Part shown: in pieces, positions 33,672-54,175 of the stretch | Layout of the letters: every line of letters starts with the position of its first letter | Position numbering within the stretch: the stretch's first letter is position 1 | DNA from: Mesorhizobium sp. 113-3-3 | GTDB taxonomy: Bacteria; Pseudomonadota; Alphaproteobacteria; Rhizobiales; Rhizobiaceae | Assembly: GCF_016756495.1 (NCBI RefSeq) | Contig: NZ_AP023243.1 | Span: 62,001 to 126,000 of the forward strand | Direction: 5' to 3' | Length of the DNA: 64,000 nt | The notes under the pieces: generated by a model | Seen by the model: only the letters and a program-made list of their open reading frames with translations | The model's database searches: none | What the model was told of the DNA's origin: nothing | Program-made: the position numbers and the translations under genes

Positions 33672-35243
33672 TCATTCCGACCCCAACGTCGCCACTGTCT
33701 TCAGGGCGCCGTCGAGCATGTCGCCCTTCTCGTCCTTCAAAGCGACCTCACGTAAACGCCGGATCCAGTCGGCGGCATCGTCGCGGCCCTTGAGCATGGG
33801 AAGCGCCGACAGCACGCGGTCGAATTTCGATTGCGCCCGGACATGGGTGTCGCTGTAGCCCTTGATCAGCCGGCGGCAGTTGAGGACTTCGACGGCCAGC
33901 GTGTAGTCCTGGGGCACATATCCCAGTGCCAGCGCGTACCAGCGCTCGAGATGCGCGGTCTCGACCTTGTGGCGCAGCAGGCCGCGGCGCCAGCGGCGCA
34001 GGCCGCCGATGAACCACAAAGCGGCGAAGCCGGCAAAGCTGTCGGTGCGGATGCGGCGGCCATGGTTGATGCGGCGGTCGAGGAAGGCGGCAAGCTTCGG
34101 CCGGCTCTCGATATAGCTGCCCAGCCCCGCCGGCAGCGTGCCGCAGAATTCTTCGATGCGGGGATGGAAATATTCGGTGACCTGCAGGATCGAGCCATCC
34201 TTGACGCCGACCTCCTTGCGCACGCGCCTGTCACGCGTCGAGCGTGTCTTCAGGTCGGCGACGCGGATCATGTCATCGTAGCATAGCGCGTTGGCCAGAT
34301 GCTTGGCGGCGGCGATGGACAGCGCATAAGCACGGTCGGCGCCGTCCAGCGCGACAGCCTTGTCCAGCCGGTCGAGATACTCGCGCCCATAGGCGATGTC
34401 CTGATAGTCGACGACCTTTTTCAGGCCCCGCAGCGCCATGTCGCGCACCGTCGCGGGCATCAGATCGATACGGGCGGCGAGCGCCTGCCAGCCCTGCAGC
34501 AGGTTCTGCGGGCCGGTGACGCGCCCCGCACCCAGGGCGGATTCGACAATCGCCGGCTCCGCCGGCTTTGGCGCCGGCGCGGCCGTGCCGCGCGCGCGGT
34601 CATAGGCAGCGCCAAAGGCGGCGAGGCTGGCCTTGACGCCACGGCCGCCGGCACCGATCGCCTGCTCATAGCTTTCGCGCGTGAACGGCAGCGCGTCCGA
34701 CCCGGCCAGCGCGCCAAGCAGGCTGGCCGAGATCATCGAGCCGTTGTCAGCGGCGATCTTCTCCATGTCGAAGGCGATGAAGCGCTTCGACGCGGCTTCC
34801 GCCGTCGCATGCACCTTGGAGGACGAGGCCCGGCCGTCGCCCGGCTCGATCTTTTCCGACACCGCGGCGATGCGGTGCGAGGAGGCAATCAGCGTCGTGC
34901 GTTCCGGCGTGACGAAGCCACGGATGATGGCGCGGCCGGCTTCCATCAATTCGGCGGCGATCAGTATGTCGACATCGCCTTGCGAGGGCGACAGCGCGAA
35001 GACCGGAAGCCGGCCGGTGTCGCGGGCCATCTCGACATAATAGATTGTCGCGCCGGTGCGTTGCGCCACGCCGGCGACCGAGGTCGATTGCGCGACATAG
35101 CCATTGCGCTCGGCAACGTCGGTGATCCAGTCGGCCAAGACGCCACCGCCCTGGCCGCCGACCGCCAGCACGGCGAGCTTGATGACACGCTCGTCATCCT
35201 GGGCGCCGGCCTTGGCGCGGAGTGGGGGGACGGCGTCAAGCAT
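33672..35243 (-). CDS. iorB: Indolepyruvate ferredoxin oxidoreductase beta-type subunit
   Basis: A 523-aa protein. The first 200 or so residues are the gamma/beta-type domain of 2-oxoacid:ferredoxin oxidoreductases ('KLAVLAVGGQGGGVLADWITDVAERNGY', then 'SVAGVAQRTGATIYYVEM'). The remainder is a long C-terminal extension, as in the large IorB of aerobic proteobacteria. It works with IorA in CoA-dependent oxidative decarboxylation of an aryl 2-oxoacid. It overlaps iorA by 8 bp. In this context the substrate could be 2-aminophenylglyoxylate (isatinate) rather than indolepyruvate; this is inference from neighbours. Confidence 0.87.
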   Translation of the reverse strand: MLDAVPPLRAKAGAQDDERVIKLAVLAVGGQGGGVLADWITDVAERNGYVAQSTSVAGVAQRTGATIYYVEMARDTGRLPVFALSPSQGDVDILIAAELMEAGRAIIRGFVTPERTTLIASSHRIAAVSEKIEPGDGRASSSKVHATAEAASKRFIAFDMEKIAADNGSMISASLLGALAGSDALPFTRESYEQAIGAGGRGVKASLAAFGAAYDRARGTAAPAPKPAEPAIVESALGAGRVTGPQNLLQGWQALAARIDLMPATVRDMALRGLKKVVDYQDIAYGREYLDRLDKAVALDGADRAYALSIAAAKHLANALCYDDMIRVADLKTRSTRDRRVRKEVGVKDGSILQVTEYFHPRIEEFCGTLPAGLGSYIESRPKLAAFLDRRINHGRRIRTDSFAGFAALWFIGGLRRWRRGLLRHKVETAHLERWYALALGYVPQDYTLAVEVLNCRRLIKGYSDTHVRAQSKFDRVLSALPMLKGRDDAADWIRRLREVALKDEKGDMLDGALKTVATLGSE

Positions 35244-37389
35244 CGGCGAAGGTCAGGCGCCGGCTTTCGCGGCGGCGTTGCAACAGGCTAATGGTGGCGC
35301 GGCGCGCGGATTCCAGAAACCGGTCCCAGCGGCTCGGATTGTGCACGACATCGGCGCGGTAGAAGGACGGGCAGAGCACCGCAGCATCGGCGACCTCGCC
35401 GCAATTGCCGCAGCCGACGCAGCTCTGGTCGATGGATGCCACGGGATCGTCGCGCAGCGGATCGTCGAGCGACTTCACCGACAGCGACGGGCAGCCCGAC
35501 AGCCGCATGCAGGCATGATCGCCGGTGCAGATGTCCTCGTCGACGCCGAATTTCGGTTTGACGACCCTTGTCCCTCCCTTGATCGCCTTGTCGACCAGCG
35601 GCTTTTCGCGGCGCTGGCGGTTGAGCATGCATTCGGACGAGGCGACGATGACCTTCGGCCCCTTCTCCTCCGTCGTTAGCGCCTCGCGCAGCGTGTCCTG
35701 CATCTTGCCGACATCGTAGGTGCGGTCGACATGGCGCAGCCATTTGACGCCCATACCCTTCACCGCCTCGGTGATCGGATGCTTGGTCGACTTGGTCTTG
35801 TTGCCGGCGCGCGACGACAGGATGTCCTGCCCACCGGTCGCGGCCGAGTAGAAATTGTCGACGATGACGATGACGCCGTCATTCTTGTTGAACACCGCAT
35901 TGCCGATCGAGGAGGTCAGGCCATTGTGCCAGAAGCCGCCATCGCCGACGAAGGAGATCGAGCGGCGCTTGGCGTCGGGCGAATTGAACGCCGAGGCCGA
36001 GGCCGGGCCGAGACCATAGCCCATGGTTGTCGCGCCGAGTTCGAAGGGCGGCATGATCGAGAACAAATGGCAGCCGATGTCAGAGGCAATATGGTGCTTG
36101 CCGAGTTCCTGCTCGACCAGCTTTGTCGCTGCAAAGATCGGCCGCTCCGGACAGCCGATGCAGAACCCAGGCGGGCGGCCCGGCACGACGTTGATCAGGT
36201 CGGCCGTATCGACGCCGTCGCCGACCTTGTTGGGCGCGCGCACTTCGCCCGGCAAGAGATGCGGCGCTTCGGCGCGCAGGAAGGTGCCGATGCCGTCGAG
36301 CATGACCTGGCCGGTATATTCGCCGGCCATCGGAAGATATTCCTTGCCGACCAGCCTGGTGCCACGCCCGGCCTTGTGCAGCATCGCGGCAAAGGCCTGT
36401 TCGATGTAGTTGGGCTGGCCTTCCTCGACGACCAGCACCGACTGCTTGCCCTCGCAGAAGGACAGGAACTCGTCGTCGATCAAGGGATAGACGGCGTTGA
36501 GCACATAGAGCGGCACCTCGGTCTCGCCATAGGTGTCGGCAAGGCCGAGACGCTGCAAGGCGCGGATGACCGAATTGTACATGCCGCCCTGCATGACGAT
36601 GCCGACCGAGCCATGATCCGAACCGAAGAATTCGTTGATCTTGTTCTTGGCGATGAAGTCGACCGCCGCCGGCCAGCGTTTTTGCACCTTCTCCTTCTCG
36701 TGCAGGAAGGAGGCGGGCGGCAGCACGATGCGGCCGGTGTCGCGGCGCGGCGCGTCCAGCGCATCGGCCACCGTCATGGGCGGGCGCTTGTTGTCCTTGG
36801 CGATGAAGTGGCCGTGCACATGGCAGCAGCGGATGCGCACCTGCAGCATCACCGGCGTGTTGGAGACCTCCGACAGTTCGAACCCGTCTTCCACCGCCTT
36901 GACGATCGACGGCAAATTGGGGCGCGGGTCGAGCAGCCAGACCTGGCTCTTCATGGCGAAGGCATGGCTGCGCTCCTGCATGATCGAGGAGCCCTCGCCA
37001 TAATCCTCGCCGACGATGATCAGCGCGCCGCCGGTGACGCCGCCGGAGGCAAGGTTGGCGAGCGCATCGGAGGCGACATTGGTGCCGACAGTCGACTTGA
37101 AGGTGGCGGCACCACGAATGGGATAGTGCACCGAGGCGGCCAGCATGGCGGTGGCTGTCGCCTCCGACGCGCTCGCCTCGAAATGCACGCCGAGTTCACC
37201 CAGAATGTCCTGCGCGTCGGCCAGCACGTCCATCAGATGGCTGATCGGCGCGCCCTGATAGCCGCCGACATAGCCGACGCCGCATTGCAGCAGCGCCTTG
37301 GTGATGGCGAGGATGCCCTCACCGGCGAATTCCTCGCCGGCGCCAAGCCTGAGTTTCTCGACTTCCTTGGCAAAAGACCGTTCGGCCAT
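35236..37389 (-). CDS. iorA: Indolepyruvate ferredoxin oxidoreductase alpha-type subunit (TPP enzyme)
   Basis: A 717-aa thiamine diphosphate 2-oxoacid oxidoreductase subunit. It has an N-terminal pyrimidine-binding domain ('GVGYVGGYQGAPISHLMD', 'TFKSTVGTNVASDAL'). The TPP motif begins at GDGGFWHNG (about 481) and ends near VIVDN (about 512). A C-terminal ferredoxin domain (about 620-663) follows. Its second cluster is canonical (CVGCGNCG...C), while the first has wider Cys spacing (CTGDHACMRLSGC). It acts with IorB in the cytoplasm. A GAAGG site precedes ATG 37389. It lies 43 bp after the MarR gene and is likely the fourth gene of the operon starting at 40337. Confidence 0.9.
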   Translation of the reverse strand: MAERSFAKEVEKLRLGAGEEFAGEGILAITKALLQCGVGYVGGYQGAPISHLMDVLADAQDILGELGVHFEASASEATATAMLAASVHYPIRGAATFKSTVGTNVASDALANLASGGVTGGALIIVGEDYGEGSSIMQERSHAFAMKSQVWLLDPRPNLPSIVKAVEDGFELSEVSNTPVMLQVRIRCCHVHGHFIAKDNKRPPMTVADALDAPRRDTGRIVLPPASFLHEKEKVQKRWPAAVDFIAKNKINEFFGSDHGSVGIVMQGGMYNSVIRALQRLGLADTYGETEVPLYVLNAVYPLIDDEFLSFCEGKQSVLVVEEGQPNYIEQAFAAMLHKAGRGTRLVGKEYLPMAGEYTGQVMLDGIGTFLRAEAPHLLPGEVRAPNKVGDGVDTADLINVVPGRPPGFCIGCPERPIFAATKLVEQELGKHHIASDIGCHLFSIMPPFELGATTMGYGLGPASASAFNSPDAKRRSISFVGDGGFWHNGLTSSIGNAVFNKNDGVIVIVDNFYSAATGGQDILSSRAGNKTKSTKHPITEAVKGMGVKWLRHVDRTYDVGKMQDTLREALTTEEKGPKVIVASSECMLNRQRREKPLVDKAIKGGTRVVKPKFGVDEDICTGDHACMRLSGCPSLSVKSLDDPLRDDPVASIDQSCVGCGNCGEVADAAVLCPSFYRADVVHNPSRWDRFLESARRATISLLQRRRESRRLTFADA

Positions 37390-37428: not shown

Positions 37429-37440
37429 ACATCTAGATGT
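37429..37440. promoter_or_regulatory. Perfect 12-bp palindrome between marR and iorA
   Basis: ACATCTAGATGT overlaps the stop codon of the MarR gene and lies about 40 bp upstream of the iorA start. Its symmetry and place fit an internal operator for that MarR protein, but the overlap with coding sequence makes chance plausible. Confidence 0.4.
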
Positions 37441-37915
37441 CGTGCTTGCGAATGTTCTTGAGCATCTTCAAAAGCGTGGCGATGAGTGCCGCATATTCGG
37501 CGTCGTCGATATCGTCGAACATCGCCTCGAAGGCGTCATGCATGGCCGGCCAGGCGCGGGTGAACTCGGCGCGGCCCTCGTCGGTCAGGAAGACATGGCG
37601 GATGCGGCTGTCGGTAACGCCCTGCTCGCGACGCACGAAGCCCTGCCCCTCCAGCGTGTCGAGCGTGCGGCTCAAGGTCGACTGCTCGATGACCGTGTAG
37701 ACCGAGAGATCGTTGACGGTGACGCCGTCGGTGACCGACAGCACGGCCAGCGTGCGCACCTGCGGAATGGTCAGGCCCTGCTTGCGGAAATCATCGCGCA
37801 AGGTGGCGTTGTAGCGGCCCATGATGCGGTTCATCAGATAGGGCGCGAATTGCTGCAGGCCGATCTGCCCGAGGGTCGAAATGCGCTGGCGCTTTTCCGT
37901 GATCTTCTGTTCCAT
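37433..37915 (-). CDS. MarR-family regulator of the hydrolase/iorAB operon
   Basis: A 160-aa winged-helix protein. The DNA-recognition region is 'GVTVNDLSVYTVIEQSTLSRTLDTLEGQGFVRRE', followed by the wing 'TDSRIRHVFLTDEGRA', typical MarR. GGAGG lies 5 bases before ATG 37915, and the ATG shares a base with the stop of the flavoprotein gene upstream. MarR proteins commonly sense aromatic acids or CoA thioesters, so it is a candidate sensor of the substrate of this cluster. Confidence 0.92.
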   Translation of the reverse strand: MEQKITEKRQRISTLGQIGLQQFAPYLMNRIMGRYNATLRDDFRKQGLTIPQVRTLAVLSVTDGVTVNDLSVYTVIEQSTLSRTLDTLEGQGFVRREQGVTDSRIRHVFLTDEGRAEFTRAWPAMHDAFEAMFDDIDDAEYAALIATLLKMLKNIRKHDI

Positions 37916-39486
37916 CACAGCCTCCCCGCCAGCAGAAAGCCGGAGCGGCCGCCGAGACCCGCGCCCGGATGGGTGGAGGCGCCGATATGGTAGAGGTTCT
38001 TGATGCCGGTCTGGTGGTTGCGGCTGGTCTTGAACGGCCGCCACAGGAAGGACTGGTCGATGGTCGACGAGCCGCCATAGGGATCGCCGCCGACCAGGTT
38101 GATGTTCATCGCCTCGAGATCGGCCGGCGAATAGGCGCGGCGTGCGATCACGCTGTCCTTGAAGCCGTCGATATGGCTGGCGAGGATGGCTTCGGCGCGG
38201 TCGGCATAGGCCTCGCGCAGCGCTTCAGTCCATTGTCCGTCAGCCGGCGCCTGCAGCTTGCCGGCGGCATCGCCCTTGATGTGGCGGGGCGCCTCGGGCA
38301 GTTGCAGCCAGAGGATCGCCTTGCCTTGCGGACAGCGCGACGGGTCGAGCGCGTGCGGCTGGCCGACGCAGATGGTCGGCACTTCCGGCAGCATGCCGCG
38401 CGCCGCCTCGTTGCAGGCTTTCGAGACGCCATCGAGCCCAGGCGTCAGATGCAGCAGCGCCACCTTGTCCAGCCCTTCGCCACGCCATGCCGGCGGCTTG
38501 GCCAGCGCGTAGTGGATCTGGAAATTGCCCTTGCCGTAGCGATATTGCCGCGTCGCCTCGACATCGTTCCTGGGCGCATCCGCGCCGAGTAGGCGGCCAT
38601 AAAGCTGCGTCGGCGTGACCGAGCAGATGACGCTCTTGTTCGCCGCGATGGTTTCACCCGAGGCGAGCCGCACGCCGGTCGCACGGCCACCGGTCTGGAT
38701 GATTGAGGCGACATCGGCACCGGTGCGGATCTCGCCGCCACGTTCCCGGATCAGGGCCTCGAAGGCCGACAGCAGGTTCTTCGCCCCGCCCTTGACGATC
38801 GGAGCGCCTGCGGCCTCCAGCGCGAAGGCGATCACCTTGGCGATCTGGCCGGAGAAGGCATCTTCCGGCCCAAGACCGGCATGCAGCACCCAGGGCGCCC
38901 AGAGCGCGCGGATGGTCTCGGACTGGTAGGTGCTTTCCAGCCAGCCGCGTGCCGGCGCCAGCGCCTCGCCGAGAAAGGCGGCAAGGCCGCGCGGGCCGCG
39001 CCGCCAGGCATCGCCGGCCAGCAGCTTGGCTGTCGGGTAGGACCACAGGCTGCCGCCGAGCAGGCCGAACAGCAGGCCGGCATTGCGCTCGATGCCACCG
39101 ACATCGTCGGCATGCCGGTCGCCATCACCCGCCGCGATCGCGTTGAGGGCGGCGACATTGGCGGCGCGGTCGGTGTTGAGCACGGCATGGCTGCCGTCCG
39201 GCCGCAACACGCCCGTCGGCGTGCCGGTGTGGCAGAACTCCAGCCCGTGCCGGGCGAGGTCGCCGCCCAATGCGGCAAAGGCCGGCGAGGTGATGAACAG
39301 CACGAAGGTCGTCGCCATCACGTCATGGATGAAGCCGGGCGCGGTGACCTCCTCGGTGCGCATGCAGCCGCCGATGCGATCATTGCGCTCCAGCACGAGC
39401 ACACGCGCCCCTTTGCCGCCGAGCATCGCCGCGCAGACCAGCGCATTGATGCCGCTGCCGACGATGATGTGATCGGGCGCTTTCAT
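37915..39486 (-). CDS. Phytoene-desaturase-like FAD oxidoreductase, copy 1
   Basis: A 523-aa flavoprotein of the CrtI/PYROXD2-like group. The N-terminal dinucleotide fold reads 'IIVGSGINALVCAAMLGGKGARVLVLERNDRIGG' (GxGxxA). The C-terminal FAD contact region is 'GIKNLYHIGASTHPGAGLGGRSGFLLA'. It is homologous to the protein at 40457: both share 'VGQP.A.DPSR.PQGK..LW.Q'. It lies between a cyclase-family hydrolase and a MarR gene, so a role in oxidising an aromatic or heterocyclic intermediate is likely. The substrate cannot be read from sequence. Start ATG 39486 is chosen by fold alignment; the longer open frame upstream overlaps the hydrolase. Confidence 0.88.
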   Translation of the reverse strand: MKAPDHIIVGSGINALVCAAMLGGKGARVLVLERNDRIGGCMRTEEVTAPGFIHDVMATTFVLFITSPAFAALGGDLARHGLEFCHTGTPTGVLRPDGSHAVLNTDRAANVAALNAIAAGDGDRHADDVGGIERNAGLLFGLLGGSLWSYPTAKLLAGDAWRRGPRGLAAFLGEALAPARGWLESTYQSETIRALWAPWVLHAGLGPEDAFSGQIAKVIAFALEAAGAPIVKGGAKNLLSAFEALIRERGGEIRTGADVASIIQTGGRATGVRLASGETIAANKSVICSVTPTQLYGRLLGADAPRNDVEATRQYRYGKGNFQIHYALAKPPAWRGEGLDKVALLHLTPGLDGVSKACNEAARGMLPEVPTICVGQPHALDPSRCPQGKAILWLQLPEAPRHIKGDAAGKLQAPADGQWTEALREAYADRAEAILASHIDGFKDSVIARRAYSPADLEAMNINLVGGDPYGGSSTIDQSFLWRPFKTSRNHQTGIKNLYHIGASTHPGAGLGGRSGFLLAGRL

Positions 39487-39545: not shown

Positions 39546-40337
39546 TTATTTTCCCGACACCAGCGCCAGTGCGCGGATCGGGCTGCCGGTGCCGTGCTCG
39601 ATCTTCAGCGGCGCCGCGATCAGGATGGCTCCTTTCGGCGGCAGCTGGTCGAGGTTGCAGAGGCTGGCAAGGCCGTAGCGATTGGCCTTGTGCATCAGCG
39701 TGTGCGCCGGGAATGGCGGCTCCATGCCGCCCGCCTTGCCGGCGTCGGTACCTATCGTCTCCGAGCCCCACCCCTTGATGTCCTTGGCTATCAGATACTG
39801 GATGGCTTCGGCAGTCGGGCCGGGCGTGTGCGGGCCGGTTTCGTTGGCGTTGAGGAATTCGGCTTCCGAACCATTGCGCTTGTACCAGTCGGTGCGCATC
39901 ACCACCCACTCGCCTGGGTTGATGGCGCCATGCTTGGCTTCCCACGCCTTGATGTGGTCGACGGTGAGCAGGAAATCGTGATCGGCGGCGGCCTCCTTGG
40001 AGCAGTCGATGACATTGACCGGGCCAACGAAATTCTGCGCCGGAATGGTGTCGGTGGCGCCGTCCGGATAGTCCTTGCCGGTGATCCAGTGCTGCGGCGC
40101 ATCGAAATGCGTGCCCGAATGCTCGCCGAGCTTCAGCCAGTTCCACGCCCACCACGGACCATTCTTGTCGTATTTCGAGATCTGATGAATCTCGACCTTC
40201 GGCGTGTCGACGGCAAGCTCCGGCGGCAGCTTGATCAGCGGCGTGTCCGGCCCGAGCTGCGCGGAGAGGTCAACCACCTTGATGGCGCCTGACAGCAACT
40301 GGCCAGCGACTTCGCCGAGGAGTTTTTGGGTGTCCAT
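39546..40337 (-). CDS. Cyclase-family metal hydrolase, candidate isatin hydrolase
   Basis: A 263-aa protein of the cyclase/kynurenine formamidase-like fold (PF04199 type). The metal motif HSGTHFDAPQH spans residues 73-83, giving His73, His77 and Asp79. His212 and Ser225 (GLASLCN) follow. From memory, the Labrenzia isatin hydrolase binds Mn2+ through His73/His77/Asp79 and uses Ser225 in its proton channel; the same numbers occur here at the same total length. This was not checked by alignment. The enzyme opens the lactam of isatin to isatinate. Kynurenine formamidase is an alternative. It is the first gene of a leftward operon with a flavoprotein, MarR, iorA and iorB. Confidence 0.8.
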   Translation of the reverse strand: MDTQKLLGEVAGQLLSGAIKVVDLSAQLGPDTPLIKLPPELAVDTPKVEIHQISKYDKNGPWWAWNWLKLGEHSGTHFDAPQHWITGKDYPDGATDTIPAQNFVGPVNVIDCSKEAAADHDFLLTVDHIKAWEAKHGAINPGEWVVMRTDWYKRNGSEAEFLNANETGPHTPGPTAEAIQYLIAKDIKGWGSETIGTDAGKAGGMEPPFPAHTLMHKANRYGLASLCNLDQLPPKGAILIAAPLKIEHGTGSPIRALALVSGK

Positions 40338-40426
40338 GGTCTGAAGTTCCCTCTTTCTAGTGATGATCAAGGCTCGTCTCGGCCCTTAATATCCTACTAG
40401 ACGAAAACATATGCATCTGCAATTAT

Positions 40427-40440
40427 CTTTAAGCATAAAG
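40427..40440. promoter_or_regulatory. TTYAAGCNTRAA operator, copy 1
   Basis: TTTAAGCATAAA (40428-40439, one mismatch to symmetry; flanking C and G extend the dyad) lies 17 bp before the flavoprotein start at 40457. It sits in the 119-bp divergent gap to the hydrolase. On the minus strand its arm CTTAAA is followed 16 bp later by TATGTT, a reasonable -35/-10 pair for the hydrolase operon. Related copies lie at 48145, 55342 and 56235. Confidence 0.65.
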
Positions 40441-40456: not shown

Positions 40457-42031
40457 GTGAGCGAGTTCGACGCCATCTTTGTCGGGGCGGGCCACAACAG
40501 TCTGGCATGCGCCGCGCATCTGGCGCTCAAAGGCTGGAAAACCGGGATTTTCGAGCGCAGCGCAACAATCGGCGGCGCCGTCCAGACCCGCGAACTCACC
40601 CTTCCCGGCTTCCGTCATGATTTCGGCGCGATGAATCTGAGCCTGTTTGCCGGCTCGGCCTTCCACCGGAAATATGCAAATGAATTGAAAGCGCAGGGCC
40701 TGGAATTCTCGCCAGTCGCGGACTGTTTCGCCAGCGCCTTCCCGGATGGACGCTGGTTCGGCGTCAGCAACGACTTGGAAAAGACCGCCACGCGCATGGC
40801 CAATTTCTCCGCCGCCGATGCCGCGGCATGGCGCAGGCTGGTCGCCGCCTTCCCGGCCGAGGCCGAGCATCTGTTCCGGCTGCTGGGTTCGCCGATGAGT
40901 GCGCGGGCGCTTGCCGGCACGGCGTGGAACCTGTGGCGCAGGAAGGGTGTTGCCGGTGCGCTCGACACCGGCCGGCTGCTGCTGTCGTCGCCCCGCGCCT
41001 GGCTGGAGGAGACTTTCGAGTCGCCTTATGTGCGGGCAACGCTTGCCACCTGGGGCATGCATCTCGACTTCGCGCCCGACATCGCCGGGGGTGCGGTTTT
41101 TCCGTACCTGGAATCGATGGCGAACCAGAGTTTCGGCATGGTGCTGGGCAAGGGCGGCGCCGACACCATCATCCGGGCGCTGGCCGGCATGGTCACATCT
41201 GCCGGCGGCCAGATCGTCACCGGCGCCGAAGTTTCGGAGATCACGGTGTCCGCCGGCAAGGCGACCGGTGTCCGGCTCGCTTCAGGTGAGACGCATACGG
41301 CGACCAAGGCTGTCATCGCCGGCGTCGCGCCCAAGGCGCTGACCGGCACGCTGCTGCCCGGCGGTTCCGGCAATGCCGGCTTCGACACGGCGATGAAAAA
41401 GTTCCGGTATGCGCCGGGCACGATGATGATCCACCTGGCGCTGGACGACCTGCCGGACTGGCGCGCCGGGGCCGAGTTGCGGCAGTTTGCCTATGTGCAT
41501 CTGTCGCCCTCGCTCGACGCGATGTCGCGCACCTATCAGCAGGCGATGGCCGGCATGCTGCCCGACGAACCGGTGCTGGTCGTCGGCCAGCCTACCGCGA
41601 TCGATCCTTCACGTGCGCCTCAGGGCAAGCATGTGCTGTGGGTACAGGTGCGCATGCTGCCTGCCGAGATCCTTGGCGATGCGTCGGCCAAGATCGCGCC
41701 CGCGCATTGGGATCAGGTTAAGGACGCCTATGCCGAGCGCGTGCTCGACATCATCGAAACCTATGCGCCCGGGCTGCGGAGCAAAATCCTTGGCCGTTCC
41801 GTGTTCTCGCCCATCGATCTCGAGCGCGAGAACCCGAACCTTGTCGGCGGCGACCAGGTCTGCGGCAGCCATCATCTGGCGCAGAACTTTCTGTTCCGCC
41901 CGGCACGTGGCTACGCCGGCTGGAACACGCCGGTCGGCAATCTGCATTTGACGGGAGCCGCGACATGGCCGGGCGCCGGCACCGGCGCGGCCTCTGGTTT
42001 CATGCTCGCGCAACAGCTTGGCGGGAGGTAG
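40457..42031 (+). CDS. Phytoene-desaturase-like FAD oxidoreductase, copy 2
   Basis: A 524-aa flavoprotein with 'AIFVGAGHNSLACAAHLALKGWKTGIFE' at the N-terminus and 'GNLHLTGAATWPGAGTGAASGFMLA' at the C-terminus, the same family as the protein at 37915. It starts with GTG 40457 after a purine-rich stretch (GGGAACGGGG). It is divergent from the hydrolase operon and first of a rightward set leading into an oligopeptide-type ABC importer (111 bp gap). Two non-identical copies facing each other suggest two consecutive oxidations, or two substrates, in one pathway. Confidence 0.88.
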   Translation: MSEFDAIFVGAGHNSLACAAHLALKGWKTGIFERSATIGGAVQTRELTLPGFRHDFGAMNLSLFAGSAFHRKYANELKAQGLEFSPVADCFASAFPDGRWFGVSNDLEKTATRMANFSAADAAAWRRLVAAFPAEAEHLFRLLGSPMSARALAGTAWNLWRRKGVAGALDTGRLLLSSPRAWLEETFESPYVRATLATWGMHLDFAPDIAGGAVFPYLESMANQSFGMVLGKGGADTIIRALAGMVTSAGGQIVTGAEVSEITVSAGKATGVRLASGETHTATKAVIAGVAPKALTGTLLPGGSGNAGFDTAMKKFRYAPGTMMIHLALDDLPDWRAGAELRQFAYVHLSPSLDAMSRTYQQAMAGMLPDEPVLVVGQPTAIDPSRAPQGKHVLWVQVRMLPAEILGDASAKIAPAHWDQVKDAYAERVLDIIETYAPGLRSKILGRSVFSPIDLERENPNLVGGDQVCGSHHLAQNFLFRPARGYAGWNTPVGNLHLTGAATWPGAGTGAASGFMLAQQLGGR

Positions 42032-43672: not shown

Positions 43673-43710
43673 TCTTCAGCCTTGCACCTGCCGGTCTTCG
43701 CCCGGCAGGC

Positions 43711-43832: not shown

Positions 43833-43858
43833 AGTTTCCCCAGAGTGGTTACGCCGGC

Positions 43859-45701: not shown

Positions 45702-46576
45702 GCGCCTGTCTCGACATCGCCAATCTGAGCGCCGTGCTGCCGAACGGCCAGCGCGTGCTGCGCTCGGTGTCGCTCTCCGTCCAGCCCGGCGAGGTGCGCG
45801 CGCTGGTCGGCGAGAGCGGCGCCGGCAAGACGATGATAGGCAAGGCGGTGCTCGGCGTGCTGCCGTCGAGTGTGCGCATCGTCGAAGGCGACATGAAGCT
45901 CGAAGGCGAAGACCTCGGCAAGTTGCAGCCCAAGGCCCGGCGTACGCTGATCGGCGCGCGTACGGCGCTGATCCCGCAGGATCCGCTGACCGCGCTCAAC
46001 CCGTCGCGCCGCATCGGCCCGCAGATGACCGACCGGCTGGTGCGCATTCTGGGCTGGAGCGGCGAGAAGGCGGATCAACGTGTCCGGCAATTGCTTGACG
46101 AGGTGCAGATCCGCGATCCCGATCGCGTGCTGAAATGCTATCCGCATGAGCTCTCCGGCGGGATGCGCCAGCGCGTGCTGATCGCCGCCGCCTTCGCCGC
46201 CGAGCCCCGGCTGATCGTCGCCGACGAGCCGACCACGGCGCTCGACGTCACCGTGCAGAAGCAGATCCTGCGCCTGATCGCCGCGTTGCAGCGCGAGCAC
46301 GGCACGGCGATCCTGTTCGTCACCCATGATCTCGGCGTCGTCGCCAAGATCAGCCAGGAGGTCTCGGTGCTCTACGCCGGCAAGGTGGTGGAGGAAGCCG
46401 ACACGGCGGCGCTCTTCGCCTCGCCACAACACCCCTACACACGGGCGCTGATGGCGGCGACGCCGCGCTACACCGATCCCTTCGCTTCGCTGAAGCCGGT
46501 GGACGAGGCGGTGCTGGCCGGGCTTGCCGCCGAGATCGCAGCAGCAGACGAGGCATGGAGGCGGCCGCATGGTTGA
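45698..46576 (+). CDS. ABC transporter ATPase (DppD-like)
   Basis: A 292-aa ATPase with GESGAGKT (Walker A), LSGGMRQRV (signature; Met in place of the usual Gln) and [16 protein letters not shown] (Walker B, D-loop). The oligopeptide-type tail 'SPQHPYTRALMAATPRY' follows. Coupled to both neighbours by overlaps of 4 and 8 bp. It pairs with the ATPase at 46569. Confidence 0.92.
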   Translation: MSACLDIANLSAVLPNGQRVLRSVSLSVQPGEVRALVGESGAGKTMIGKAVLGVLPSSVRIVEGDMKLEGEDLGKLQPKARRTLIGARTALIPQDPLTALNPSRRIGPQMTDRLVRILGWSGEKADQRVRQLLDEVQIRDPDRVLKCYPHELSGGMRQRVLIAAAFAAEPRLIVADEPTTALDVTVQKQILRLIAALQREHGTAILFVTHDLGVVAKISQEVSVLYAGKVVEEADTAALFASPQHPYTRALMAATPRYTDPFASLKPVDEAVLAGLAAEIAAADEAWRRPHG

Positions 46577-47405
46577 GCCGCTGTTTTCCGTGCGCGGGCT
46601 GAAGGTCGCGCTGCCCGACATGACCCGCAAGCCGCTGATCGGCCGTGCGCCTCTAGCCGAAATTCTGAAAGGCCTCGACTTCGATCTGCCGAGGGGCTCG
46701 GTGACCGGCATTGTCGGCGAATCCGGGTCCGGCAAGTCGACGCTCGGCCGCGCGCTGGTCAGGCTGCTCGAGCCGAGCGCCGGCAGCATCAGCTTCGAGG
46801 GCCGCGACATCACCCATCTGCCGGAGGCGGAGCTGCGGCCGCTGCGCCGTGACCTGCAGATGATCTTCCAGGACCCGATGTCGTCGCTCAATCCGCGCCG
46901 CACCATCGCCAGCATCATCGCCGCGCCGCTCAAGCAGAACGGGCTTGGCGACAATCTCAGGGACCGTGTTGCAGAGGCGTTGAAGCGGGTCGGTTTGCCG
47001 CAGAGTTTCGCCAGCCGTTACCGCCACGAACTGTCGGGCGGACAGCGCCAGCGCGTCGGCATTGCCCGCGCGCTCGCGCTATCGCCGAAATTCGTGCTGG
47101 CCGACGAGATCGTCTCCGGCCTCGACGTGTCGACGCAGGCGCAGATCCTCACTTTGCTGGAAAAGCTCGCGGCGGAGATGGGCCTGACCGTCGCTTTCAT
47201 CAGTCACGATCTGTCGGTTATCCGGCGGCTGTGCCGGCAAGTCATCGTCATGCGCGAAGGCGTGATCGTCGAAGCCAGTGCCACCGACGCCTTGTTCGAC
47301 AATCCCCGAGAGGCCTACACGCGCGACCTCATCGCAGCCATTCCGCTGCCCGAAATCGACGCCGGCTGGCTGGACATGCCTTCGGCGGCCAAGCCGCCAG
47401 CGTGA
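46569..47405 (+). CDS. ABC transporter ATPase (DppF-like) with unusual Walker B/D-loop
   Basis: A 278-aa ATPase with GESGSGKST and LSGGQRQRV intact. The Walker B/D-loop reads FVLADEIVSGLDVSTQ where most relatives have DEPTSALD; the catalytic Glu is kept, but Pro, Thr and Ala are changed. Second ATPase of the importer, last of the five overlapping transport genes, followed 76 bp later by the VOC gene. Confidence 0.9.
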   Translation: MVEPLFSVRGLKVALPDMTRKPLIGRAPLAEILKGLDFDLPRGSVTGIVGESGSGKSTLGRALVRLLEPSAGSISFEGRDITHLPEAELRPLRRDLQMIFQDPMSSLNPRRTIASIIAAPLKQNGLGDNLRDRVAEALKRVGLPQSFASRYRHELSGGQRQRVGIARALALSPKFVLADEIVSGLDVSTQAQILTLLEKLAAEMGLTVAFISHDLSVIRRLCRQVIVMREGVIVEASATDALFDNPREAYTRDLIAAIPLPEIDAGWLDMPSAAKPPA

Positions 47406-47481: not shown

Positions 47482-48081
47482 ATGAAGACGATACTTCGAA
47501 ATGCAACGCTCGCCGCCGCTGTCCTTGGCAGCGCCGGCATGGCCTCGGCGGATTCGATCCCCGGCATGCGCGGCCATGATCATACCGGCATCACCGTTCC
47601 CGACATGAAGCAGGCGGTCGACTTCTTCACCGAAGTGGTCGGTTGCAAGAAGGCGATGTCGTTCGGTCCGTTCGCCGACGACAAGGGCACTTTCATGCAG
47701 GATGTGCTGGGTGTCGACCCGAAGGCCGTGATCGAGCAGATCACCATGGTCCGCTGCGGCTATGGATCGAACATCGAGCTGTTCAAATACACCGCGCCCG
47801 ATCAGAAGGATCTGACGCCGAAGAACAGCGACATTGGCGGCTTCCACATCGCCTTCTATGTCGACGACGTCGCCGCCGCCAAAGCCTATCTCGACGGCAA
47901 GGGCGTCAAGACGCGGATGGGACCACTGCCGGTCAAGGAAGGCCCCGCCGGCGGCCAGACCATTCTCTATTTCCAGGCGCCCTGGGGATTGCAGCTGGAA
48001 GCAATCAGCTATCCCGACGGCATGGCCTATGAGAAGGGTGCCGAGACGGTGCTGTGGAGCCCGAAGAACCCGGAAAAGTAA
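47482..48081 (+). CDS. VOC (glyoxalase-fold) protein with signal peptide
   Basis: A 199-aa protein with a Sec signal (MKTILRNATLAAAVLGSAGMASA, about 1-23) and a vicinal oxygen chelate domain. The domain has 'HDHTGITVPDMKQAVDFFTEVVGCKKAM', 'NIELFKYTAPD', 'GFHIAFYVDDVAAAKAYLDGKGV' and 'WGLQLEAISYPDG'. The His and Glu residues expected for metal binding are present. Export of a VOC protein is unusual, and its place after an importer suggests it acts on or binds the substrate in the periplasm. GAGGA precedes ATG 47482. Substrate unknown. Confidence 0.85.
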   Translation: MKTILRNATLAAAVLGSAGMASADSIPGMRGHDHTGITVPDMKQAVDFFTEVVGCKKAMSFGPFADDKGTFMQDVLGVDPKAVIEQITMVRCGYGSNIELFKYTAPDQKDLTPKNSDIGGFHIAFYVDDVAAAKAYLDGKGVKTRMGPLPVKEGPAGGQTILYFQAPWGLQLEAISYPDGMAYEKGAETVLWSPKNPEK

Positions 48082-48180: not shown

Positions 48181-48213
48181 CACGAGGCAGCAAGCGAAGA
48201 GGAGATCGCACGG

Positions 48214-50508
48214 ATGAAGGTTGCGGTTCTCGGCGGCGGACCAGCCGGCCTCTACTTTGCCATTTCGATGAAGCTCAGGGACGCCGGCCACGACGTGACG
48301 GTGTTCGAGCGCAACCGCGCCGACGACACATTCGGCTGGGGCGTCGTGCTGTCGGCCGAAACGCTGGAGAACCTCGCCAAGAATGATCCGGTCAGCGCCG
48401 TCTGGATCAAGAAGCATTTTGCCTATTGGGACGACATCGCCGTCATCCATGACGGCGTGCGCACCGTCTCTTCAGGCCATGGTTTCTGCGGCATCGGCCG
48501 CAAGCGGCTGCTGATCCTGCTGCAGCGCCGCGCCCGCGAACTCGGCGTCAAGCTGATGTTCGAGACTGATATCGCCGACCCCCGCCCCTATATGGAAACG
48601 CATGACCTTGTCGTCGCCGCCGACGGACTTAATTCCAGGGCGCGCAACACCTTCGTCGAAATCTTCAAGCCCGACATCGACACGCGCAAATGCAAGTTCG
48701 TCTGGCTCGGCACCAATCAGAAATTCGACGACGCCTTCACCTTCATCTTCGAGAAGACGGAGCATGGCTGGGTGTGGGCGCACGCCTACCAGTTCGACAG
48801 CGAGACCGCGACCTTCATCGTCGAATGCAGCGAACAGACCTGGGCTGCCTTCGGCTTCGGCGCGATGACGCAGCAGGAATCGATCGCGGTGTGCGAGCGC
48901 ATCTTCGCCAAGCATCTTGGCGGCCATGCGCTGATGACCAATGCCAACCACATCAGAGGTTCGGCCTGGATCAATTTCCCGCGCGTGCTGTGCGAGCGCT
49001 GGTCCTACAAGAACCTGGCGCTGATGGGCGATGCGGCGGCATCGGCGCATTTTTCGATCGGCTCCGGCACCAAGCTCGCTTTGGAGAGCGCGGTGGCACT
49101 GGCCGAGTATGTCGAGACCGAGCCGGATCTCGACGCCGCCTTCCGCAAATATGAGGATGCCCGCCGCACCGAGGTGCTGAAGCTGCAATCGGCGGCGCGC
49201 AATTCGCTGGAATGGTTCGAGGAGGTCGAGCGCTATCTCGGCCTCGACCCGGTGCAGTTCAACTATTCGCTGCTGACGCGCTCGCAGCGCATCAGCCACG
49301 AGAATTTGCGGCTGCGCGATGCCGAGTGGCTGGGCGGCGCCGAAGAATGGTTCCAGCGCCAGGCGGGCGCCGGCGGCAACAGGCTGCGCCGTGCGCCGAT
49401 GTTCGCGCCGTTCAAGCTGCGCGACATGAAGCTCAACAACCGCGTCGTCGTCTCGCCGATGGCGCAGTACAAGGCCGTCGACGGCTGTCCGACCGACTGG
49501 CATTTCACCCACTATGCCGAGCGCGCCAAGGGCGGCGCCGGCCTTGTCTATATCGAGATGACCTGCGTCAGTCCGGAAGGCCGCATCACGCCCGGCTGTC
49601 CGGGTTTCTACGCGCCCAAACACGAGGTGGCGTGGAAGCGGCTGGTCGATTTCGTCCACGCCGAGACCGAGGCCAAGATCTGCGCCCAGATCGGCCATTC
49701 CGGCGCCAAGGGTTCGACCCGGCTCGGCTGGGAAGGCACCGACGTGCCGCTGGCCTCGGGCAACTGGCCTGTGATGGCGGCATCGGCCGTCGCATGGTCG
49801 CCGCAGAATCAGGTGCCGAAGGCGATGGACCGCGCCGACATGGATCTGGTGCGCGACCAGTTCGTGGCCTCGGCCAAGATGGCTGACCGCTGCGGCTTCG
49901 ACATGCTCGAGATCCACGCCGCGCACGGTTATCTCCTGTCGTCCTTCATCACGCCGGTCACCAACCGGCGCACGGATGAGTATGGCGGTTCGCTGGAAAA
50001 CCGCATGCGCTATCCCCTCGAAATCTTCCGCGCCGTGCGTGCCGCCTGGCCGGTGGGGAAGCCGATCTCGATGCGCATTTCGGCCAATGACTGGGTCGGC
50101 ATCGAAGGCGTCACACCCGCCGACGCGGTCGAGATCGCGCGGCTGCTGCACGAAGCCGGCGTCGACATATGCGACGTCTCGGCCGGGCAGACATCGGCGC
50201 TGGCGAAGCCGGTCTATGGCCGCATGTTCCAGACGCCGTTTTCCGACCGCATCCGCAATGAGGTCGGCATGGCGACGATGGCGGTCGGCAACATCTATGA
50301 GCCGGACCATGTCAATTCGATCCTGATGGCCGGCCGTGCCGATCTGGTGGCGCTGGCGCGGCCGCACCTTGCCGACCCCTATTGGACGCTGCATGCGGCG
50401 GTGACGCTTGGCGACCGCGGCGTGAAATGGCCGGATCCCTATTTGCCCGGGCGCGACCAGATCTACCGGCTGGCCGAGCGCGATGCCGCCGCGGGGCTGA
50501 AAGTATGA
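48214..50508 (+). CDS. Fused flavin monooxygenase/old-yellow-enzyme reductase: 2-aminobenzoyl-CoA or salicylyl-CoA type
   Basis: A 764-aa fusion. About 1-380 is an aromatic monooxygenase with [13 protein letters not shown] and the FAD motif '[26 protein letters not shown]'. About 390-764 is an FMN old-yellow-enzyme domain ('[22 protein letters not shown]', '[30 protein letters not shown]'). The layout is that of 2-aminobenzoyl-CoA monooxygenase/reductase, which hydroxylates and partly reduces the ring. Databases often name the same family salicylyl-CoA 5-hydroxylase/oxidoreductase. With SDR, hydratase, acyl-CoA dehydrogenase and RidA genes downstream, the aminobenzoyl-CoA role fits best. No CoA ligase gene is nearby. 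Confidence 0.87.
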
Positions 50509-51278
50509 CGGCCCCAACAGCGATTTCAGGCAAGCATGCGCTGGTCACCGGCGGCGGCTCCGGGGTCGGCCGGGCCATCGCGCTGGCGCTGGCCAAGGCT
50601 GGCGTCAACGTGACCATATGCGGCCGGCGCGAGGCGGAACTCGCCAAAGTGGCCAGCGAAAACGACCGCATTTTCGGCGTCGCCGCCGATGTCACCAATG
50701 AGGCGTCCATGGCCTCGCTCTACGAGACAGCGCAAGCCGCGCGCGGGGCCTTCGACATCGTCATTGCCAATGCTGGCATGGCCGGCAGCACGCCGGCGCA
50801 CAAGACCACGCTCGCCGACTGGCAAAAGACGCTCGACGTCAATTTGACCGGTGCCTTCCTGACGGTGAAACCGGCGCTTGCCGGCATGGCCGCGCGCAAG
50901 GCGGGACGGATCGTGTTCATCGCCTCCACGGCCGGCTTGAAAGGTTATGCCTATGTCGCGCCTTACGTGGCGGCCAAGCATGGCGTCGTCGGGCTGATGC
51001 GGGCGCTGGCGGCGGAGACGGCGAAATCAGGCGTCACCGTCAACGCGGTGTGCCCGGGCTTCGTCGAGACCGACATGCTGGAAGAGTCCATCCAGCGCAT
51101 TGTCGAAAAAACCGGCCGCTCGGCCGGCGAGGCACGCGCCAGCCTTGCCTCGACCAATCCGCAAGGCCGCTTCATCCAGCCGCAGGAAGTCGCCGCCGCC
51201 GTGCTGTGGCTGTGCGGCGATGCGGCGGCATCGATCACCGGACAGGCAATTTCCATCTCAGGAGGCGAGACATGGTAG
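50505..51278 (+). CDS. SDR-family oxidoreductase
   Basis: A 257-aa short-chain dehydrogenase with the cofactor motif GGGSGVGRA (16-24), NAG near 88 and the catalytic Ser ('FIASTAG') with YVAAK (Tyr/Lys). The C-terminus '[12 protein letters not shown]' is usual for 3-hydroxyacyl-CoA type SDRs. It starts inside the monooxygenase stop (ATGA). It probably oxidises or reduces the hydroxy/oxo group of the alicyclic CoA ester made by the upstream enzyme (inference). Confidence 0.92.
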
Positions 51279-51742
51279 CCGGCCCCCTGCCCGCACCGTC
51301 GGGACCCGGCAAGGACAGGCTGCGCCTGTGGATCAGGCTGCTGCGCGCCTCGCGTACGATCGAGGCCGAACTGCGCGAGCGCCTGAAGAAGGAATTCGAT
51401 ACGACGCTGCCGCGCTTCGACGTGATGGCCGCACTCTACCGCGTGCCGGAAGGCATGCTGATGAGCGACCTGTCGCGCTTCCTGCTGGTCTCCAACGGCA
51501 ATGTCACCGGCATTGTCGACCGGCTGGTTTCGGAAGGGCTGGTTGCCCGCGCGCGCCGCAATGGCGACCGCCGCACGTCCATGGTGCGGCTGACGGAGGA
51601 AGGCACCAAATCCTTCGCCACCATCGCTGCCGCGCATGAGGGCTGGATCGGCGAATTGCTGGGCAAGGTCAGCGAGGAGGATGCCCGCCGGCTGACCGGC
51701 ATGCTGACCTCGTTCCGCAGCAACTGGGAGGGACGCGAATGA
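51272..51742 (+). CDS. MarR-family regulator in the CoA-ester operon
   Basis: A 156-aa winged-helix protein with '[35 protein letters not shown]' (recognition helix region) and the wing '[16 protein letters not shown]'. GGAGG precedes ATG 51272; it overlaps the SDR by 7 bp and the next gene by 4 bp. It is the closest candidate to bind the TTYAAGCNTRAA palindromes, with a CoA thioester as possible ligand, as for BadR- or CouR-type MarR proteins. Confidence 0.92.
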
Positions 51743-52551
51743 CCGCGATGGCCAACCTCAAGCCGAAGCATTTCCTGTGGGAGGTCGAGGGCAGGATCGC
51801 CAAGATCCGGCTCGATCGGCCGGAGCGCAAGAACCCGCTGACTTTCGACAGCTATGCGGAACTCCGCGACACGTTCCGCGACCTCGTCTACGCCGACGAT
51901 GTCGATGCCGTGGTGTTCCTCTCCAATGGCGGCAATTTCTGCTCCGGCGGCGATGTCCACGACATTATCGGTCCGCTGGTCAAGATGGACATGAAGCAGC
52001 TTTTGGCCTTCACCCGCATGACCGGCGATTTCGTCAAGGCGATGCTCAACTGCGGCAAGCCGATTATCGCCGCTGTCGACGGCGTGGCGGTCGGGGCCGG
52101 CGCCATCATCGCCATGAGCTCCGACATTCGCATCGCCACGCCGGAGGCCAAGACCGCCTTCCTGTTCACCCGCGTCGGCCTCGCCGGCTGCGACATGGGC
52201 GCCTGCGCGATCCTGCCGCGCATCATCGGCCAGGGCCGCGCCGCCGAACTGCTCTACACCGGCCGCACCATGACGGCCGCCGAGGGCGAGCGCTGGGGCT
52301 TTTACAACCGGCTGGTCGATGCCGCCTCGCTCGAGGCCGACGCACTCGACATGGCGGCGCGCATCGTCTCCGGCCCGACCTTCGCTCACGGCATCACCAA
52401 GACGCAGCTCAACCAGGAATGGTCGATGGGCCTTGACCAGGCGATCGAGGCGGAAGCGCAGGCTCAAGCGATCTGCATGCAGACGCGCGATTTCGAGCGC
52501 GCCTACAAGGCGTTCGTGGCCAAGGAAAAGCCGGTGTTCGAGGGGAATTGA
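51739..52551 (+). CDS. Enoyl-CoA hydratase/isomerase family protein
   Basis: A 270-aa crotonase-fold protein: '[20 protein letters not shown]', oxyanion-hole region '[13 protein letters not shown]', '[19 protein letters not shown]' and '[22 protein letters not shown]'. The usual catalytic Glu of the second motif is replaced by Asp/Met in 'GCDMGA', so it may be an isomerase or ring-opening hydrolase rather than a simple hydratase. Overlaps both neighbours (ATGA and TGATG). Confidence 0.9.
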
Positions 52552-53699
52552 TGGCTGACAAGAGTTTCCTCAACTGGCCGTTCTTCGAAGACCGCCACCG
52601 CGAACTGGCCGAAAGCCTGGAAGCGTGGTGCGCGAAGAACCTCCCCGTCGATCATCACGACGTCGACGCCGCCTGCCGCGAGCTGGTGCAAAAACTTGGC
52701 CGAGACGGCTGGCTGAAACCGACGGCTGTCGACACCGACAATCCCGGACCGCTCGATGTGCGTACCTTGTGCATCACGCGCGAGACTCTCGCCAGGCATG
52801 ACGGGCTCGCCGATTTCGCTTTCGCCATGCAGGGGCTTGGCACCGGCGCGCTCAGCCTGTTCGGCACGGCGGACCAACAGCAATGGCTGGCGAAGACGCG
52901 CGCCGGCAAGGCGATCTCGGCCTTTGCCCTGTCGGAGCCGCGCTCCGGTTCGGATGTCGCCAACACCGAGATGACGGCGACCCACGACGGCGACAGCTAT
53001 GTTCTCACGGGCGAAAAGACCTGGATCTCCAATGGTGGCATCGCCGACCTCTACATCGTTTTTGCCCGCACCGGCGAGGCGCCGGGCGCCAAGGGGCTTT
53101 CCGCCTTTGTCGTACCGGGTGACGCCAAGGGCCTCGGCATCGCCGAACGCCTCGAAGTGATCGCGCCGCATCCGCTGGCGAGGCTGTCCTTCGATCATGT
53201 CCGTCTGCCTGCCTCGGCACTGATCGGCAAGCCCGGCGACGGTTTTCGTATCGCCATGTCGGTGCTCGACGTGTTCCGCTCGACTGTCGGCGCCGCGGCA
53301 CTCGGCTTTGCCCGTCGGGCGCTCGATGAAAGCATCAGCAGAGTGGCCGAGCGCAAGCTGTTCGGCGCACCGATGGCCGAGTTGCAGATGGTGCAGGGCC
53401 ACATCGCCGACATGGCGCTCGACGTCGATGCGGCGGCGCTTCTGGTCTACCGCGCCGCCTGGACCAAGGACATGGGCGCGGCGCGGGTAACGCGCGAGGC
53501 GGCGATGGCCAAGCTGTTCGCCACCGACAAGGCGCAGGAGGTGATCGACAGAGCGGTGCAGTTGCATGGCGGCGATGGCGTGCGCAAAGGCCACATCGTC
53601 GAAAGCCTGTATCGCGAGATCCGCGCGCTGCGCATCTATGAGGGTGCTTCCGACGTGCAGAAAGTGGTCATCGCGCGGCAAGTGATGGGCGCGGCCTGA
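52551..53699 (+). CDS. Acyl-CoA dehydrogenase family protein
   Basis: A 382-aa FAD acyl-CoA dehydrogenase. It has '[50 protein letters not shown]' (FAD/substrate region) and the C-terminal '[19 protein letters not shown]' with the Glu position used as catalytic base in many members. GAGGGG precedes ATG 52551, which shares a base with the hydratase stop. A likely role is dehydrogenation of the ring or of the opened acyl chain in the aminobenzoyl-CoA route. Confidence 0.92.
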
Positions 53700-53761: not shown

Positions 53762-54175
53762 ATGCATGAGATTTTGCAGCCGGAAGGCTGGGCCAAACCG
53801 GTCGGCTACGCCAATGGCGTCGCGGCGCGCGGGCGGCTCATCTTCGTTGGTGGACAGGTCGGCTGGAACGGGCAATGCCAGTTCGAGACCGACGATTTTG
53901 TTGGCCAGGTAAAACAGACGCTGCAAAACATCGTGGCGGTGCTGGCCGAGGCGGGCGCCGAGCCGCAGCACATCACCTCGATGACCTGGTATTTCACCGA
54001 CAAGGCCGAGTACCTCGCCAACCTCAGAGGAATCGGCGAGGCCTATCGCGAGGTGATCGGCCGGCATTTCCCGGCAATGGCCGCCATGCAGGTGATGGCC
54101 CTGGTCGAGGATCGCGCCAAGGTGGAGATCCAGGCCACCGCCGTCATTCCTGACGAACTCGTTCGTCCGGAATAA
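53762..54175 (+). CDS. RidA-family (enamine/imine deaminase) protein
   Basis: A 137-aa YjgF/YER057c/UK114-type protein: 'ANGVAARGRLIFVGGQVGWNG', 'VKQTLQNIVAVLAEAGAEPQHITSMTWYFTD' and 'PAMAAMQVMALVEDRAKVEIQATAVI'. The catalytic Arg of true RidA (before the final Glu/Ile stretch) is replaced in this 'ALVEDRAKVEIQ' context, so it may be a subgroup member with altered activity. Its place after the CoA-ester genes fits release of ammonia from the enamine made after ring reduction. GGGAGG lies before ATG 53762. Confidence 0.9.
   Translation: MHEILQPEGWAKPVGYANGVAARGRLIFVGGQVGWNGQCQFETDDFVGQVKQTLQNIVAVLAEAGAEPQHITSMTWYFTDKAEYLANLRGIGEAYREVIGRHFPAMAAMQVMALVEDRAKVEIQATAVIPDELVRPE

Follow-up and report, generated by a model that had tools for sequence, protein, structure and literature searches.

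A candidate isatin-catabolic locus of Mesorhizobium sp. 113-3-3 in which IorAB may supply 2-aminobenzoyl-CoA

Introduction

Phenylglyoxylate oxidoreductase, an enzyme of anaerobic benzoyl-CoA metabolism whose subunit make-up is unlike that of IorAB, converts an arylglyoxylate to an aryl-CoA, and this is the chemistry that we propose here, likening the enzymes by description and not by sequence, for an IorAB-type oxidoreductase of Mesorhizobium sp. 113-3-3. Oxidoreductases of the superfamily to which IorAB belongs usually yield acyl-CoA. The iorA and iorB genes lie in a stretch of 64,000 nucleotides (NZ_AP023243.1, positions 62,001 to 126,000; here called the window) of a 7.73-Mb genome assembled in 3 contigs, beside a candidate isatin hydrolase gene and the genes for a 2-aminobenzoyl-CoA monooxygenase/reductase (ABMR) pathway.

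That IorAB homologues are connected with isatin is already known: IadA and IadB of auxin-degradation loci are homologues of IorA and IorB, and isatin, isatinic acid and anthranilate were detected in the same work (Conway et al. 2022, PMC9613470). A nine-gene region, iadC-K2, was described as sufficient for anthranilate, and its overexpression led to the accumulation of C8H7NO3 (the formula of isatinic acid) and C7H7NO (Jiang et al. 2025, PMC12633357). Judging by its name, this region would exclude iadAB, and the accessible text of that paper does not mention iadA. No reaction is assigned to IadAB in the accessible published text on auxin-degradation loci, and in the open full-text literature, with subscription papers mostly outside the search, we found no statement that IorAB converts isatinate to 2-aminobenzoyl-CoA. 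In Bradyrhizobium japonicum, iorA and iorB were reported to be auxin induced (30.7-fold and 7.64-fold, respectively; PMC3788728). The iad names have also been used for a cluster in a strain with homologues of all the indole-3-acetate degradation genes of strain 1290, an iac strain (PMC8383072); because it carries that gene set, its iadA and iadB mutants were not taken as bearing on IorAB.

The window shares with the iad loci of Variovorax, Bradyrhizobium and Achromobacter the IorA/IorB homologues, a MarR regulator and, as predicted intermediates, isatin and isatinic acid (PMC9613470, PMC12633357). It differs in that its genome has no IadD orthologue and in that it carries a flavoprotein/Opp module, LLM and aldolase genes and an adjacent ABMR trunk. 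With the aerobic 2-aminobenzoyl-CoA pathway, which consists of a ligase and ABMR and is named in PMC6221969, it has in common the ABMR fusion and a beta-oxidation-like gene set, whereas the window cluster lacks the ligase gene, which sits in a kynurenine-type locus elsewhere.

Predicted isatin route and its enzymes

Gene calls and family scans (Pfam and NCBIfam), in which several start codons were inferred from the translations, recovered all the genes named in an earlier sequence-only reading of this stretch, which had proposed a route from isatin to 2-aminobenzoyl-CoA with IorAB in place of a CoA ligase. As we now draw it, isatin hydrolase would open the isatin ring to give isatinate (2-aminophenylglyoxylate), a 2-oxo acid, and IorAB would decarboxylate isatinate oxidatively, using CoA and an electron acceptor, to give 2-aminobenzoyl-CoA and CO2. 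ABMR would then hydroxylate and reduce the ring of 2-aminobenzoyl-CoA, and SDR, hydratase, acyl-CoA dehydrogenase and RidA would perform the subsequent beta-oxidation-like steps. The hydrolase assignment, the co-occurrence of the genes, the distribution of the ligase and the ligase-less genomes together make the supply of 2-aminobenzoyl-CoA by IorAB the best reading, and on gene content the locus is probably an isatin-catabolic module that feeds the ABMR trunk in this way. Conversion of isatinate and CoA to 2-aminobenzoyl-CoA is the likely IorAB step; we infer it, as we do every reaction in this strain and above all this one and its CoA dependence, from gene identities, motifs, co-occurrence, linkage and ligase distribution. 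What stands of the earlier proposal is the hydrolase candidate, the co-occurrence and linkage, the scarcity of the ligase near ABMR and the existence of IorAB- and ABMR-containing genomes without that ligase; a ligase-free organism and an auxin source do not stand.

The product of the putative isatin hydrolase gene (39546..40337, minus strand; start inferred, with the open reading frame [ORF] opening at 40370) matched isatin hydrolase B (PDB 4j0n) with 429 bits and three other isatin hydrolase chains with 303 to 315 bits, while the remaining seven chains listed gave at most 100 bits. The published signatures of these enzymes are the metal motif HxG[T/A]HxDxPxH, GLAS or GLQC, and the aromatic pocket WxW/FxW (PMC6117287); the translation carries HSGTHFDAPQH, GLAS and WWAWNW. 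Sequence and signature motifs are thus common to the window protein and the isatin hydrolases of Labrenzia and Ralstonia (PMC6117287; 4j0n, 5nnb, 5nna, 5nmp). With all three motifs and the match to 4j0n, it is a strong isatin hydrolase candidate, as the sequence-only reading had supposed.

The iorA (35236..37389) and iorB (33672..35243) genes, both on the minus strand, overlap by 8 bases. They encode a 717-aa thiamine diphosphate (ThDP) oxidoreductase alpha subunit with an Fe-S domain (PF02775) and a 523-aa protein with a POR (gamma) domain (PF01558) and DUF6537 (PF20169). IorB passes the short IorB family NF006179 (709.3 bits; cut-off, 348), and IorA is an outlier of IOR_alpha (TIGR03336), scoring 273.5 bits and not reaching the curated cut-off of 650.9. 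The features of the 2-oxoacid oxidoreductase superfamily are present (ThDP domain, GDG motif, Fe-S cysteines and POR domain), and the GDG and Fe-S cysteine motifs are invariant in an alignment of ten IorA homologues. Residues 621-627 of IorA form an invariant CxxDxxC, in which Asp replaces one Fe-S cluster cysteine, and the Fer4_10 match is sub-threshold (19.9 against 25.5). Sequence searches of the PDB returned no relative of IorA and, for IorB, a single borderline hit, on an unrelated enzyme. The IorA structure model was of low quality (pLDDT, a predicted confidence score, of 59), and the 50 fold matches shown were other ThDP enzymes at TM scores of about 0.2. Adjoining iorB is a 495-aa ORF (32000-33487) with no Pfam or NCBIfam match at 0.001.

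The ABMR-type fusion gene (48214..50508; NF006101, 1260 bits against a cut-off of 1078) opens a set of plus-strand genes. It is followed by genes for an SDR dehydrogenase (50505..51278; family scans, start inferred), an enoyl-CoA hydratase (51739..52551; NF006107, 482 bits against a cut-off of 330), an acyl-CoA dehydrogenase (52548..53699; family scans) and a RidA-family protein (53762..54175; PF01042).

Linkage and co-occurrence

Gene order was compared in the best 80 of 581 IorA relatives from named genomes, with up to 10 kb taken on each side; the top genome-contig matches were Mesorhizobium loci, at up to 98% identity. The flanks contained the hydrolase in 56 loci and at least one of two CrtI/CrtO-like FAD oxidoreductases (FAD1 or FAD2) in 39; ABMR was present in 20 loci, and a member of the ligase family in 5. 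The order FAD2-hydrolase-FAD1-MarR-iorA-iorB, together with an Opp importer, recurred in Rhizobiales and Rhodobacterales. M. loti DSM 2626 (L138) carries the cluster as well. In L170, L173 and L184, the genes for ABMR, SDR, Rid, hydrolase, FAD1, MarR, IorA, IorB, FAD2 and Opp share one strand, with an opposite-strand SDR-like match interposed in L170 and L173, and no ligase match or AMP-ligase motif was found in these three loci. L207 holds hydrolase, IorAB, ABMR, SDR, hydratase, dehydrogenase and Rid together, again with no ligase match. An IadD homologue lies near iorA in nine loci, three of them with the hydrolase in the flank; the window IorA and IorB are, respectively, 68-77% and 50-58% identical to the proteins of these nine. 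Loci with and without the hydrolase were intermixed in the IorA tree (79 rows; L176 of the 80 was omitted for an in-frame stop). TRAP-type importer genes stand beside iorAB without a hydrolase match in L158 (13735-16530) and L155 (6875-9897), the latter also with a divergent cyclase-family gene; their significance is speculative.

Co-occurrence was then counted in 199 genomes of the order (the order sample), with E-value cut-offs of 1e-30 for short IorB, 1e-40 for isatin hydrolase and 1e-150 for ABMR, which were found in 37, 22 and 61 genomes, respectively. All 22 hydrolase genomes contained both short IorB and ABMR. The hydrolase-ABMR association had a p value of 2e-13 by genome and, with 13/13 genera, 4e-7 by genus, and ABMR was present in 36/37 IorB genomes (p 5e-22; the exception is G024); these values take genomes or genera as independent and are inflated by relatedness. 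Nine of the 37 IorB genomes have a best match below 303 bits, possibly to another subfamily, which leaves 28 strong-IorB genomes. ABMR was also found in all 27 named IorA genomes searched, which were hand-picked from the 80 loci for genus breadth (L191 left out) and cover eight of the nine IadD-homologue loci. Among these 27, the fetched IorA locus lacked the hydrolase in 11 and ABMR in 26, so that in those 26 genomes ABMR sits elsewhere. Within the order sample, IorB and ABMR are 8 to 19 kb apart in the four own-genus genomes and also in G010, G050, G068 and G071, and 35 kb apart in G112; in the remaining hydrolase-positive genomes they are far apart or on other contigs. The earlier expectation that the hydrolase/IorAB and ABMR groups co-occur in related genomes was thus borne out: they do so far beyond chance, often linked, and with different upstream genes.

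Distribution of the CoA ligase

No window ORF of at least 80 aa exceeded 150 bits against a profile of the ligase, and the sole AMP-binding match among the window ORFs given to Pfam was in a fused MFS/acyltransferase/AMP-binding single ORF (28294-31707). The genome itself holds an orthologue of the ABMR-cluster ligase (G000:C1:4114316-4115938, 1021 bits), adjoining tryptophan 2,3-dioxygenase, with kynureninase next to the dioxygenase. The earlier remark that no aminobenzoate-CoA ligase is seen is therefore correct for the window and incorrect for the organism, and the idea of a strain without the ligase was rejected.

The profile was built from six ABMR-cluster ligases, of which L037 came from a hydrolase-positive genome and the other five from negative ones, and separated its members (at least 813 bits) from all else (at most 240 bits). 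It was applied to ORFs of at least 80 aa in the flanks of ABMR (some 9 kb in either direction, less where the contig ended) in the other 60 of the 61 ABMR genomes. A ligase lay near ABMR in 34/39 hydrolase-negative genomes versus 8/22 hydrolase-positive genomes (Fisher p 9e-5). Dropping the cut-off loci that lacked a ligase (three per side; cut-off loci with a ligase were kept) gave 34/36 versus 8/19 (p 3.4e-5), and a hand tally by genus gave 22/23 versus 7/13 (p 0.005).

Genome-wide, the ligase family was missing at 1e-150 from nine of 49 IorA genomes searched (G214, G219, G231, G234, G237, G238, G240, G241 and G242; L184 was left out). ABMR was confirmed, by search or in the locus, in G214, G219, G231, G234 and G240, the last with another AMP ligase near ABMR. 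In the order sample, where 30 genomes were searched, G105 (same genus, 100% complete) has neither the ligase nor tryptophan dioxygenase and keeps kynureninase and the isatin locus; the ligase family was not found in G085, and G183 has a ligase fragment only. Adding G105 and G085 to the ABMR-confirmed ligase-less genomes and leaving out G240 gives at least six genomes with IorAB and ABMR and no ligase of that family, a count that covers this family and not unrelated ligases. Where the ligase is present, it is adjacent to or within 2 kb of tryptophan dioxygenase in G069, G136, G068, G181, G171, G194 and G188 and not beside it in G010, G100, G013, G070, G106 and G112; in G050 and G071 only the ligase, and not the dioxygenase, gave a match. 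The simplest reading is that two inlets share one trunk, the ligase serving tryptophan-derived anthranilate and IorAB serving isatin-derived isatinate. In this strain, tryptophan dioxygenase, kynureninase and 2-aminobenzoate-CoA ligase would form the separate inlet.

Alternative functions of IorAB and the trunk

Several observations weigh against a direct supply of 2-aminobenzoyl-CoA by IorAB. The ligase is kept in 40/49 IorA genomes, and the five IorA loci with a ligase in the fetched flank (L148, L199, L204, L211 and L215) include 4 of the 20 ABMR loci. G071 (L042) has iorAB, ABMR and the ligase in one cluster; an AMP-ligase motif search had made this genome a supporting case without a ligase, and the profile search overturned that, so it now stands as an exception. 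A different AMP-ligase-like ORF lies beside ABMR in the hydrolase-positive G112 and G181, and counting these two as ligases weakens the association to p 5e-4; another such ORF lies beside ABMR in Agrobacterium L180. Six of the 28 strong-IorB genomes have no hydrolase match at 1e-40, and no hydratase or acyl-CoA dehydrogenase was found in the flanks of L170, L173 and L184. Finally, if iadC-K2 excludes iadAB, anthranilate can form without IadAB (PMC12633357). In an alternative scheme with no direct formation of an acyl-CoA, IorAB or another enzyme would convert isatinate to free anthranilate or 2-aminobenzaldehyde, and a CoA ligase would then activate anthranilate for ABMR. The ligase is present in this strain's own genome and in the 40 IorA genomes counted above, iad loci are reported to end in anthranilate (PMC9613470, PMC12633357), and C7H7NO accumulates on iadC-K2 overexpression. 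We nevertheless consider it unlikely, given the usual acyl-CoA product of the superfamily, the rarity of the ligase near ABMR in hydrolase-positive genomes and the absence of the ligase family from G105, G085 and nine of the IorA genomes, where a non-orthologous ligase could still act.

The family names, and the aminotransferase-fold gene and amino-acid importer nearby, would fit an ordinary indolepyruvate (arylpyruvate) oxidoreductase that merely neighbours isatin genes. This is improbable in view of the low IOR_alpha score of IorA, the presence elsewhere in the genome of another DUF6537 protein, within an open frame of 1188 aa, the close association with isatin hydrolase and ABMR across 13 genera, and the homologues in auxin-degradation loci. 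It is very improbable that the trunk instead serves a salicylate/gentisate-type or other aryl-CoA pathway, with the isatin genes adjacent by chance or co-regulation. The curated name of the ABMR family NF006101, salicylyl-CoA 5-hydroxylase/oxidoreductase, speaks for it; family scans show the protein fused with an old-yellow-enzyme domain, which we take to fit ABMR, the set includes a RidA-family gene, and the ligase gene of this genome, like that of some others, neighbours the tryptophan dioxygenase gene.

If IorAB does make 2-aminobenzoyl-CoA directly, the isatin branch would need no ATP-dependent ligase and anthranilate would be a by-product. The gene set offers a concrete, testable isatin pathway for rhizobia and marine Roseobacter relatives, and IadAB sit in auxin-degradation loci, the carriers of which relieve plants of the inhibition of root growth. 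As a tentative extension, which we hold doubtful as a whole, IorAB/IadAB may have a specificity new among 2-oxoacid oxidoreductases, for the conversion of isatinate to 2-aminobenzoyl-CoA, and may supply the missing auxin-degradation step in iad bacteria, with free anthranilate a shunt product. Here it might serve a route independent of auxin, with the LLM monooxygenase and an aldolase or a pyridoxal phosphate (PLP)-dependent retro-aldol step turning an imported amino acid, perhaps an oxidised tryptophan (oxindolylalanine or dioxindolylalanine), into isatin.

Source of isatin and neighbouring genes

Indole-3-acetate had been suggested as the natural source. The source search, which covered IadD and not IadE or the iac genes, found no IadD orthologue in the genome; the three Rieske oxygenase alpha (PF00848) matches share just 27-29% identity with an IadD-type protein across some 200 residues. 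An auxin source is therefore unsupported and was set aside. The amino-acid importer, aldolase and FMN monooxygenase genes beside the locus suggest a non-auxin source, perhaps oxidised tryptophan. Tryptophan is known to degrade to oxindolylalanine and dioxindolylalanine (PMC8228365), and by analogy retro-aldol cleavage of 3-hydroxyoxindole-3-pyruvate would give isatin, with pyruvate as co-product.

The probable partner in this segment is an LLM FMN monooxygenase gene (54200..55318, minus strand), found in 13/199 genomes, 12 of them hydrolase-positive (p 1.4e-12); in G010, G085, G100, G131 and G183 it is distant from the hydrolase gene or lies on a different contig. The HpaI-type aldolase (55383..56177, plus strand; TIGR02311, 181 bits, under the cut-off of 369) is a possible partner. 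LLM, aldolase and hydrolase genes are immediate neighbours in L101, L130 and L131, in L147 all three fall within some 7 kb, and the Pfam family of the aldolase occurs near isatin hydrolase in L101, L130 and L147. In L101 (735-2300; G071), an aldolase and a second isatin hydrolase occupy one open frame. The binding protein and permease of a polar amino-acid ABC importer follow (56317..58196, plus strand; family scans), and homologues lie no more than about 6 kb from the hydrolase gene in L147, L148, L192, L196, L199, L204, L211 (permease only) and L215. Between aldolase and amino-acid binding protein, the relatives G136 and G105 encode an aminotransferase of class I/II, with no match in the window (56177-56600). 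The class V aminotransferase-fold PLP enzyme (58244..59533, plus strand; TIGR01976, 592 bits against a cut-off of 352) has a counterpart of 75% identity close to isatin hydrolase in Inquilinus L192; it was rejected as a general hydrolase partner, since copies of >90% identity occur in only the four own-genus genomes of the order sample and others are <40% identical.

The remaining genes of the operons are those between and around the main enzymes. A MarR-family regulator (37433..37915; PF12802, PF01047; start inferred, ORF opening at 38044) and FAD1 (37915..39486; family scans and translation; start inferred, ORF opening at 40155) are on the minus strand, and FAD2 (40457..42031; family scans) is on the plus strand. 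FAD1 and FAD2 are 39% identical, and the FAD2 model (pLDDT 86.7) has a carotenoid desaturase as its closest fold. The divergent promoter region contains a 48-bp block (40393..40440, no strand) conserved in an alignment of 12 loci, a candidate control site; no inverted repeat came up in a simple scan of this promoter. Downstream of FAD2, on the plus strand, are an Opp-type solute-binding protein (42143..43672; PF00496, 258 bits), four genes for Opp-type permeases and ATPases (43682..47405; gene calls and family scans) and a VOC-family protein with a leader-like N terminus (47482..48081; PF00903; start inferred). A second MarR regulator (51272..51742, plus strand; family scan and translation, start inferred) lies between the SDR and hydratase genes. 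The VOC, second MarR, LLM monooxygenase, aldolase, amino-acid importer and class V aminotransferase-fold genes (the last four at 54200-59533) are additions to the earlier gene list. At the right edge lies a second, leftward dipeptide-type ABC importer (59602-63996), and DUF1800 and DUF1501 genes stand in tandem at 25023-27809.

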